From assembly GCA_031267135.1 (NCBI GenBank), contig JAIRZQ010000098.1, forward strand, positions 1 to 49,194: a stretch of DNA of 49,194 nucleotides. The letters are read 5' to 3'. The position numbers and the translations under genes were made by a program. This document shows, piece after piece, positions 27,862 to 30,419 of this stretch; position 1 is the stretch's first letter, and every line of letters begins with the position of its first letter. The DNA is from Prevotellaceae bacterium (GTDB lineage Bacteria; Bacteroidota; Bacteroidia; Bacteroidales; UBA932). The notes beneath the pieces were generated by a model, which ran no database searches, was not told where the DNA came from, and worked only from the letters and a program-made list of their open reading frames with translations.

Positions 27862-29248
27862 AGGCGCCCATTTTCAGTGATATTATTTCCCGTTCGCTAA
27901 GTAAACGGCATTCGCCCCGTTTGAGTTTCGATTTGGTTAATCCTGCAAAATACACGCGGTCGAGCTTGGTAATCTTATATCCCAAATGTTCAAACATGCG
28001 GCGTACTATTCTGTTTCTGCCCGAATGTATCTCAACGCCTATTTTTCTTTTATCGTCGTTGTCGGTATATGAAATTTCGTCAAAAAATGCCATTCCGTCA
28101 TCAAGTTGAACGCCGTTGGCAAGGCGTGTCATGTCGTTTTTTGTCAGGTTTTTATCTATTCCTACGGCATATATTTTTTTCTTTTCGTAGCTCGGATGAG
28201 TCAGAACTTTTGTCAGTTCCCCATCGTTTGTAAAAAGCAGGACGCCTGTTGTGTTTTTATCAAGCCTGCCGACAGGATAAACGCGTTCGGTGCAATAATT
28301 ACGCACAATAGTCATTACGGTTTTGTCGGCATGAGGATCTTCTACTGTTGTAACAAAATTTTTAGGCTTATTCATAACCAAATAAACCTTTTTTTCTCCG
28401 TGCAAGCGCTCGCCGTTGAACAGTATTTCATCGGCAGGCGAAACCTTAACTCCCAGCTCGGTTACCACAACTCCGTTCACCATAACAACGCCGGCTTTTA
28501 TAAACGTATCAGCTTCGCGACGTGAGCAAACTCCCGAATTTGCGATAAATTTATTCAAGCGTATTTTATTGTCTGTACCGGTATCTTCCGTGCGCACGCT
28601 GCCTGCTTTTTTCTCTTTTATCTGACGCCGTAACCGGCTGTCAACAGGTTCGGACGTGCGAATATAATTTGTTGGCCGCTGTTCTGTTCTATCGGAAAAC
28701 CGTCTGTTAATACTATTCTCTTCACTGCGCCTGTAAGTTCTTTTCGGACGTTCATCGGTCGTGCTGAACCTGCGCTTGCGTGATGCCGTATCATCATCGT
28801 TTCTTCGTTTGAATTCCGTATTTTCACTGCGCCTGTAAGTTCTTTTCGGACGTTCGTCGGTAGCGCTGAATCTGCGCTTGCGCGATGCCGTATCATCATC
28901 GTTTCTTCGCTTGAATTCCGTATTTTCACTGCGCCTGTAAGCTCTTTTCGGACGTTCATCGGTAGCGCTGAATCTGCGCTTGCGCGATGTTGCATCATCA
29001 TCGTTTCTTCGCTTAAATTCCGTATCTTCACTGCGCCTGTAAGTTCTTTTCGGACGTTCGTCGGTAGCGCTGAACCTGCGCTTGCGCGATGTTGCATCAT
29101 CGTCGTTTCTTCGCTTGAAGCTTTTGCCATCATTGGACTTTCTGGCGTATTTTTTTTCCGAATGTGATTTGGATGATTTATCTTTTGTTTTAAATGTTTG
29201 CCTCGAAACATTTTTTTTACTGCTTTCAGTTGACTTTTTATATGCCAT
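27854..29248 (-). CDS. rRNA pseudouridine synthase (RluB/RsuA type) with a repetitive basic N-terminus
   Basis: Isomerises a specific uridine of rRNA to pseudouridine. It has 464 residues, against roughly 240-290 for the bare enzyme. The last ~235 carry an S4 RNA-binding domain (IRLNKFIANSGVCSRREADT onward, residues ~229-283) and the catalytic block PVGRLDKNTTGVLL with Asp330. The extra N-terminus is lysine/arginine-rich and contains four 34-residue repeats (residues 43-178). I use the ATG at 29248; the upstream TTG at 29266 overlaps the promoter -7 element. S4 plus a basic repeat tail suggests ribosomal-RNA tethering (inference). The tail coding DNA is itself a tandem repeat, so its length may vary between strains. 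Confidence 0.88.
   Translation of the reverse strand: MAYKKSTESSKKNVSRQTFKTKDKSSKSHSEKKYARKSNDGKSFKRRNDDDATSRKRRFSATDERPKRTYRRSEDTEFKRRNDDDATSRKRRFSATDERPKRAYRRSENTEFKRRNDDDTASRKRRFSATDERPKRTYRRSENTEFKRRNDDDTASRKRRFSTTDERPKRTYRRSEENSINRRFSDRTEQRPTNYIRTSEPVDSRLRRQIKEKKAGSVRTEDTGTDNKIRLNKFIANSGVCSRREADTFIKAGVVMVNGVVVTELGVKVSPADEILFNGERLHGEKKVYLVMNKPKNFVTTVEDPHADKTVMTIVRNYCTERVYPVGRLDKNTTGVLLFTNDGELTKVLTHPSYEKKKIYAVGIDKNLTKNDMTRLANGVQLDDGMAFFDEISYTDNDDKRKIGVEIHSGRNRIVRRMFEHLGYKITKLDRVYFAGLTKSKLKRGECRLLSEREIISLKMGAYE
28715..29122 (-). repeat. Four tandem 102-bp coding repeats in the pseudouridine synthase gene
   Basis: Each 34-codon unit encodes EFKRRNDDDATSRKRRF then SATDERPKRTYRRSEDT, with small changes (AT/TA, T/A, D/N/E). 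The 102-bp length is a multiple of three, which also keeps a false frame open across the array. Confidence 0.9.
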
Positions 29249-29263
29249 TTCATTAATTTTGCG

Positions 29264-29271
29264 CAAAGGTA
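29264..29271 (-). promoter_or_regulatory. -7 element of the pseudouridine synthase-era operon
   Basis: TACCTTTG on the reverse strand lies 15 bases upstream of the ATG at 29248. It rules out the TTG at 29266 as start. Confidence 0.55.
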
Positions 29272-29308: not shown

Positions 29309-29366
29309 AGTTGCTCCTTAAAAAGTATATTTTCAGAGGGAAAAGATAATAAAGATGTTTTTTCTG
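29309..29366 (+). repeat. Solo 58-bp copy of one end of the 652-bp element
   Basis: AGTTGCTCCTTAAAAAGTAT, then TTTTCAGAGGGAAAAGATAA and TAAAGATGTTTTTTCTG, matches the reverse complement of 8063-8123 with only a few differences. The similarity stops after TTCTG. It is either a deleted copy or an independent terminal fragment. Confidence 0.65.
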
Positions 29367-29431
29367 AAAAATATTTACGTTAAATGTATAAATTCATGAA
29401 ATATTTTTGGATGTATTTCAAATAAAAATTG

Positions 29432-29439
29432 TAAATTTG
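29432..29439 (+). promoter_or_regulatory. -7 element upstream of the folded RNA
   Basis: TAAATTTG fits TAnnTTTG, with TTTTTGG about 22 bases upstream as a loose -33. A transcript from ~29446 would reach the terminator after about 190 bases. A 16-codon frame (29449-29499; MKKLICRIKKKKKHID) would start almost at its 5' end. Confidence 0.4.
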
Positions 29440-29517
29440 CCGTGTAAAATGAAAAAATTAATATGTAGAATAAAAAAGAAAAAAAAACATATAGATTAGC
29501 ATTTTTGCTATGTTCTT

Positions 29518-29636
29518 GCTCTGAAATTTAGACACTTTCAAGCGTACAAGGATAAGTATAATGCTCGCAACATGCGGGCTTATATCATGTACGCAGGTCG
29601 TCTAAAACCTCAGAGCGGATGTAAGTCCGCTTTTTT
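29518..29636 (+). ncRNA. Candidate structured small RNA with four nested helices
   Basis: Four arms pair in strict order: GCTCTGA (29518-29524)/TCAGAGC (29610-29616), TTTAGAC (29527-29533)/GTCTAAA (29600-29606), GCGTACA (29542-29548)/TGTACGC (29588-29594), and ATAATGCTCGC (29558-29568)/GCGGGCTTAT (29574-29583) with one bulge, around an AACAT loop. An intrinsic terminator follows at once and shares three bases with the outer stem, so the two compete. It is not a tRNA, tmRNA, SRP or 6S RNA by eye. It could be a free small RNA or an attenuator for the secreted-protein gene 230 bases downstream. Confidence 0.6.
29614..29636 (+). terminator. Intrinsic terminator of the folded RNA
   Basis: AGCGGA (29614-29619), a 6-base loop, TCCGCT (29626-29631), then six T. 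Bases 29614-29616 are also the end of the RNA's outermost helix. Confidence 0.8.
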
Positions 29637-29869
29637 ATTTGTCAAATTTTGAAAAATCCGACGACGGGAAAACCGCCACAGCATATAAGACAGAACTGCA
29701 ACTGTTACAAAAAAATGCAGAGTGAAACTGCAAAACACTCAAATCATATTGCAGCGAGAGCAGAAACTCGTAAAAACGGGCAAGACACTCGCGAAGCCGA
29801 CAGAGCGGGAAAAATAAAATTTTAACTAAAAACCGATGGGTCGATGGTATATAACCGGCAAAATTATTT

Positions 29870-30217
29870 ATGAAAAAATATATATTAATTTTAGTAGCAA
29901 TGATTTGTTTAGGATTTAGTGCAAATGCGGATAGTACCCCAAAACATTATTGCACAATAAGCAATGTTCCTGGAGGAGCTGTATATGCAGAGTATTATAA
30001 TGCAAGCTACGTGAGCCTACAAATAGAGAAAGCTTTGACTACAGATCTTATTGTTCTTGTAGAGACTAAAACACCAACAGGTAATTATAGTGAATATGCA
30101 ACAATAAAAGCAGGAGAAAAAAGTGCAACAGTAAAAATGTGTGATTGCGGAATTGGGTTTGCAGGTGGTAGTAGTAGTGCTTATACAGTAAAAGTTTCTA
30201 ATGCTTATTGTAAGTAA
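29870..30217 (+). CDS. Small secreted cysteine-containing protein, function unknown
   Basis: A 115-residue protein with a good signal peptide (MKKYILILVAMICLGFSANA, cleavage near 20). The mature 95 residues contain four cysteines (HYC, MCDC, AYCK) and alternate as in a small beta-sandwich (YVSLQIEKALTTDLIVLVET, EYATIKAGEKSATVKMCDC, AYTVKVSNAYC). I do not recognise the family. It stands alone: the folded RNA and its terminator lie upstream, and a 230-base stretch without a clear promoter separates them. A palindromic terminator follows at 30321. The signal peptide and codon pattern make it a likely real gene. An extracytoplasmic binding or inhibitor role would be a guess. Confidence 0.65.
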   Translation: MKKYILILVAMICLGFSANADSTPKHYCTISNVPGGAVYAEYYNASYVSLQIEKALTTDLIVLVETKTPTGNYSEYATIKAGEKSATVKMCDCGIGFAGGSSSAYTVKVSNAYCK

Positions 30218-30320
30218 TAAACTTTCCGTTCTTTTGAATTTGTAATTTTGGAAGGATAGAAGTATAAGCATTTGTGATGCGTATTAGGATTTATAATCCA
30301 TATATCGAATACGCAACCTC

Positions 30321-30353
30321 AACCCTAACAGGTTTTAAAAACCTGTTAGGGTT
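30321..30353. terminator. Palindromic bidirectional terminator-like hairpin
   Basis: AACCCTAACAGGTTTT and its exact complement AAAACCTGTTAGGGTT flank a single base, followed by TTTGTTTG. It lies 103 bases after the secreted-protein stop. Confidence 0.65.
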
Positions 30354-30419
30354 TGTTTGTTGCAGATAGCGTTCCCCCCTGTTCGGCGCAGCGTTCTTGC
30401 TATGCCGAATTAAAAACAT

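Follow-up and report, generated by a model that had tools for sequence, protein, structure and literature searches.

The window analysed here, a stretch of 49,194 nucleotides from a Prevotellaceae bacterium (GenBank assembly GCA_031267135.1, contig JAIRZQ010000098.1), contains a folded RNA of ca. 190 nt (approximately 29446-29637), with a promoter at its 5' side and a U-tract at its 3' end (Table 1). Upstream lies an RsuA gene (28600-29270), the 5' part of which carries tandem repeats of ca. 100 bp (multiple overlapping matches), and downstream lies the gene of a 115-residue protein that has no match in Pfam and is followed by a perfect, terminator-like inverted repeat (AACCCTAACAGGTT/AACCTGTTAGGGTT, 30321-30353). 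The segment 29500-29650 folds with -46.2 kcal/mol compared with a mean of -29.4 kcal/mol for shuffled sequences (z = -4.6), a value equalled by none of 200 shuffles.

An earlier note on this DNA had correctly placed four nested arms around an AACAT loop and the terminator behind them, as well as the promoter-like sequence upstream, which is TAAATTTG and follows the Bacteroidota -7 consensus TAnnTTTG (PMC7366714). This motif recurs upstream of 46 of 50 homologous copies (4.7 in shuffles), and the transcript is expected to start near 29446. The note further held that the outermost stem and the terminator overlap and that only one of them can form fully. The overlap exists and is small, being confined to GC 29615-29616 (2-3 bases) rather than spanning 29614-29616, and the proposed exclusivity is a weak claim, for the predicted fold contains both helices; as the main competition within the element this pairing was therefore set aside as wrong or minor. 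Neither the kissing loops nor the P0 hairpin upstream had been seen, nor had the multi-copy, phylum-wide nature of the element.

Table 1. Positions of the RNA element, its helices and its neighbouring features in the window.
Feature	Position	Strand	Remark
TAAATTTG	29432..29439	+	Bacteroidota -7 promoter element
ATG-TAG start-stop minigene	29463..29468	+	ATG-NNN-TAA/TAG in other copies
P0 hairpin, TTAGC-ATTTT-TGCTA	29496..29510	+	
P0 5' strand, AGCATT	29498-29503		complementary to AATGCT 29560-29565 (helix P6)
P5 helix, CAAGGA : TTCTTG	29513-29518		CAAGGA in P3 5' strand; TTCTTG upstream of P1
P1 5' strand, GCTCTGA	29518..29524	+	outer arm pair (1) with P1 3' strand; P1 pairs 99% standard in 106 copies
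Hairpin A, TGAAA-loop-TTTCA	29522..29540	+	loop carries P2 5' strand
P2, TTTAGAC : GTCTAAA	29527-29533 : 29600-29606		arm pair 2
P3 5' strand, GCGTACAAGGATAAGT	29542..29557	+	P3 covaries
GCGTACA : TGTACGC	29542-29548 : 29588-29594		arm pair 3
P4 hairpin, AATGCTCGC-AACAT-GCGGGCTTA	29560..29582	+	P4 pairs 97% standard
GCTCGC : GCGGGC	29563-29568 : 29574-29579		arm pair 4, AACAT between
P3 3' strand, TGTACGC	29588..29594	+	
Hairpin B, AGGT-loop-ACCT	29595..29610	+	loop carries P2 3' strand
P1 3' strand, TCAGAGC	29610..29616	+	
Terminator-like GCGGATGTAAGTCCGC-TTTTTT	29615..29636	+	GCGGA...UCCGC-U6
TGTAAGTCCGC	29620-29630		complementary to GCGGGCTTATA of P4 3' strand, 11 bp
Degenerate DUF805-type RNA (RF03081)	29750..29815	+	between U-tract and start codon
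Downstream gene	29870..30217	+	115-aa protein, signal-peptide-like start

A DNA search of the window's genome finds seven near-full-length places, including the window itself, with 71-78% identity to the window; relatives yield many more copies. Counted with a covariance model, R1, the genome of the window contains 26 copies (5 to 27 per genome within the genus). The model finds the element in 117 of 200 genomes (24 of 26 genera) within the family, in 139 of 393 genomes (85 of 207 genera) within the order, and in 41 of 395 genomes across the phylum, among which are closed genomes from other orders. Almost all named records that carry the window's sub-type are metagenome bins of Bacteroidales or other Bacteroidota; several look like termite-gut samples, the habitat being read from isolate codes. 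A viral origin was rejected, the class-1 pattern being absent from viral contigs; of ten looser matches, two are true members.

Beside the same RsuA gene, the window (29364-30376) and copy L098 (G005:C36) hold different promoter-RNA-gene units between conserved flanks, and other members of the genus have other sequence at this site; the difference looks like a cassette exchange. Copies L040 (2695-2855) and L069 (3094-3254) have near-identical RNA cores with different loci, promoters and genes. Three contigs of genome G003 (L041, L044 and L051) break within one identical core, so that a single upstream flank is joined to two downstream ones, and in L060 and L014 the two kissing loops do not agree in type, as though copies had recombined with each other.

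Comparison of the copies shows a new and widespread family of structured RNAs with two competing, covarying folds. In an alignment of 106 copies, which was fitted to the R1 structure (P1, P2, P3 and P4) and so leans toward those helices, the 37 pairs of fold I are 94.4% paired and 33 of them are changed on both sides, so that the compensatory changes in homologues which the earlier note had set as a check are present on a massive scale. The covariation amounts to 0.587 versus 0.196 for shuffled alignments and was equalled in none of 500 shuffles, which keep the relatedness of the copies and yield figures that are not probabilities; slid controls are 34-46% paired. P1, P3, P4, stems A and B and the pairing between loops A and B all covary in these 106 copies, every pair of P1 being changed on both sides. 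Stems A and B lie outside the R1 structure: stem A has at least 4 bp in 93 of 105 copies, with both-side changes at three of its four pairs (GAAA/UUUC, GAAU/AUUC, UAAA/UUUA), and stem B varies likewise (AGGU/ACCU, GGC/GCC, AAGU/ACUU). Also free of the lean toward R1 are the permutation tests and an independent, plain MAFFT alignment, in which 90% of cells are paired, 24 of 35 pairs are changed on both sides and the covariation is 0.449 versus 0.172. In an alignment of ca. 50 copies, too, the arms change together.

The second helix of the earlier note, P2, is from these comparisons a predicted kissing interaction between the loops of hairpins A and B. At least 6 contiguous Watson-Crick pairs join the two loops in 100 of 105 copies, compared with 17 when permuted, and the 105 copies contain 60 distinct pairings; in an early set of ca. 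50 copies, the loops had shared 6 or more complementary bases in 47 of 50 versus ca. 10 permuted.

A second set of predicted helices, mutually exclusive with fold I, covaries as well. This fold II pairs the P0 5' strand with the P4 5' strand (helix P6) and the P4 3' strand with the terminator 3' strand; its 14 pairs are 94.1% paired, with both-side changes in nine, and it has 30 double-change cells versus 10, a number equalled in none of 500 shuffles. The P4 3' strand (GCGGGCUUAUA in the window) is complementary to the strand that precedes the U-tract (UGUAAGUCCGC) and is a candidate switching strand, with the P4 5' strand and the terminator 3' strand as its two partners. The latter helix spans 7 bp or more in 98 of 105 copies (74 permuted); its compensatory changes, some of them in distant copies, include GCACGG/CCGUGC in copy L178, GCGCAGGCUU/AAGUCUGCGC in L175 and UCGUGAGCUU/AAGUUCGCGA in L022. 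P6 (AGCGUU : AACGCU) spans 6 bp or more in 114 of 130 copies (89 permuted) and occurs as AGCAUU/AAUGCU in the window and elsewhere as GACAUU/AGUGUU, AACGUU/AACGUU and GGUUUUC/GAAAACC. Both helices are conserved in sequence, and as a consequence their permutation controls are high and their margin over chance is smaller than that of fold I. P5, with at least 6 Watson-Crick pairs in 53 of 125 copies versus 36 permuted, is suggestive of a third alternative helix.

In constrained folding of the full-length RNA, a model that leaves out pseudoknots and co-transcriptional folding, fold II lies a median of ca. 12 kcal/mol above fold I, and the RNA would therefore have to enter it while being transcribed, or with help. 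Furthermore, the terminator-like helix of fold II would enclose a loop of ca. 60 nt, which is unusual for an intrinsic terminator. A U-tract (5 or more T in 8 positions) closes the element in 101 of 105 copies; the local terminator hairpin, which in class 1 gives a terminator in fold I too, is missing in ca. 30% of copies. A pairing of AAAAGCG with CGCUUUU of the U-tract as an outer helix, plausible in class 2, was also considered and rejected, as AGCG/AGCA varies without a matching change.

Between promoter and RNA, the Bacteroidales copies often carry a start-stop minigene such as ATGATATAA or ATGACATAA. The minigene occurs in 87 of 125 copies versus 45 in shuffles, its first stop lying in frame in 118 cases against 38 and 26 out of frame; the form ATG-(NNN)-stop, considered as the short frame of a possible leader-peptide attenuator, is enriched in Bacteroidales copies and absent from distant members.

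On the 3' side, 92 of 101 copies share their strand with the first downstream reading frame of 60 or more codons, at a median distance of 77 nt. The products of these frames include TonB receptor plugs, ECF sigma factors, radical-SAM enzymes, HlyD, CsgG, BspA-type repeats, a DUF4011 protein and an EcoRI-type methylase, as well as secreted proteins and small proteins resembling HTH regulators, one of which was examined and has no match in Pfam. No common pathway unites these genes, and they consequently give no hint of a ligand. The secreted proteins downstream of L069, L039, L052, L018, L056, L066 and L067 are unrelated, yet have a similar, MYQKTTKTKAGADFNSAMEQKPFEKRASLKSQKSRRN-like N-terminal lead ahead of the signal peptide. 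In many copies a DUF805 RNA stands in tandem with the element, between U-tract and start codon: the match in the window is below gathering (20 bits), whereas RF03081 scores above gathering at the same position in L058, L162 and L170, and with 31-42 bits in L010, L011, L013, L040, L059, L064 and L074.

The element probably represents a new family of transcription attenuators that act in cis, or of riboswitch candidates (probability about 0.68). It constitutes a 5' leader on the strand of the gene that follows (92 of 101 copies), and sequence and covariation combine a terminator-like helix and U-tract with a mutually exclusive fold. Of the two possibilities that the earlier note had raised, a small RNA or an attenuation switch, this position and the competing helices favour the switch; the attenuator idea was right in kind and wrong in the detail of setting the outer stem against the terminator. 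In the proposed mechanism, the element would serve the gene at 29870 as its 5' untranslated leader, transcribed from a start near 29446, and the RNA would then adopt one of two folds. Fold I would comprise the P0 hairpin, P1, hairpins A and B with their kissing loops (P2), P3 and P4. In fold II, the P0 5' strand would pair with the P4 5' strand (P6), the auxiliary helix P5 would close hairpin A, and the freed P4 3' strand would form the terminator-like helix with the strand just before the U-tract. A signal that stabilises one fold or the other, possibly a ligand, a protein, an ion or the kinetics of RNA polymerase, would set the share of transcription that continues beyond the U-tract into the gene. 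Termination at the U-tract, the identity of the ON fold and the action of a signal are what we infer from these sequences: in members without the local terminator hairpin, fold I would be the ON state, while in the window's class, where a local hairpin coexists with fold I, either fold may be the ON state. As both folds are readable from covariation, mutations can put the switch model to a direct test.

With up to ca. 27 copies per genome, a range that extends across the phylum, and positions ahead of genes for surface proteins, TonB receptors, sigma factors, peptide-modifying enzymes and DNA methylases, such an RNA would be among the largest RNA regulons of a phylum that dominates animal guts and many soils and of which few regulatory RNAs are known. 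The bolder proposal is a riboswitch-like class, found throughout the phylum, with a kissing-loop aptamer and two alternative folds that covary, which would place up to tens of unrelated surface, defence and signalling genes per genome under one global signal; it is tentative and falls somewhat short of even odds.

The complete promoter-RNA-terminator unit and its very stable fold would also suit a stand-alone small RNA acting in trans, with a separate promoter for the gene, and the many kissing-loop types of this multi-copy element could give each copy its own identity. Such a small RNA is nevertheless unlikely, because the element, at very different loci, nearly always stands immediately before a gene on its own strand, many copies have no local terminator hairpin, and the conserved pairing of the P4 3' strand with two partners would be needless for an RNA of fixed structure. 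Less probable again is a processive antitermination leader of the put/EAR kind, in which the RNA modifies RNA polymerase to pass terminators in horizontally acquired genes; the heterogeneous accessory genes downstream, the single copies in otherwise copy-poor genomes and the complex fold with kissing loops are consistent with it, but a local switch accounts better for the competing fold beside the U-tract. Least probable is the boundary of a mobile or recombining cassette, with the RNA fold as by-product of an attC-like inverted-repeat site, for although different promoter-RNA-gene units occupy the RsuA-adjacent site in the window and G005, and near-identical cores at separate loci, contig breaks inside identical cores and apparent chimeras occur, the breaks may come from repeat assembly, and the freely varying stems with pairing kept on one strand, the promoter motif, the U-tract and the G-U pairs point to RNA.

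No family of Rfam 15 lies over the element above its gathering threshold in the window or in class 1, class 2 or distant copies, nor does any at permissive E-values, the weak permissive matches in the window being chance-like except for a DUF805-like match that lies 3' of the element. No description of the element turned up in literature searches either, and the earlier note's statement that no known Bacteroidota family has this shape holds against Rfam 15. A 6S-like RNA was dropped in view of the missing Rfam match, the multiple copies and the position 5' of genes. The DUF805 RNA (RF03081, clan CL00115) is cis-regulatory, shares the same leaders and lies directly 3' of the element in many copies; it is, however, a separate structure of 68 nt, whereas the element upstream measures ca. 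160-190 nt and has no covariance-model match to RF03081 on itself, such matches always lying 3' of it. The Flavo-1, Bacteroidales-1 and Bacteroid-trp RNAs are structured RNAs of Bacteroidota (Weinberg 2010, PMC2864571), all are in Rfam and none matched the element. HMP2_1881, a 108-nt candidate RNA from gut Bacteroidetes near radical-SAM genes (PMC8040213), is compatible in phylum, rough length and one gene association, as compared by description only.

Unlike riboswitches, the element precedes functionally unrelated genes, and it matches no riboswitch in Rfam. Lysine and purine riboswitches have a multi-helix junction closed by P1 and a loop-loop kissing interaction. The element has such a P1-closed junction with kissing loops, but its helix order and sequences differ, its kissing pairs change freely and the corresponding Rfam models are unmatched. 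With terminator-platform riboswitches it shares the 5' leader, the conserved junction with kissing loops, the competing terminator-like helix and the presence of several copies per genome.
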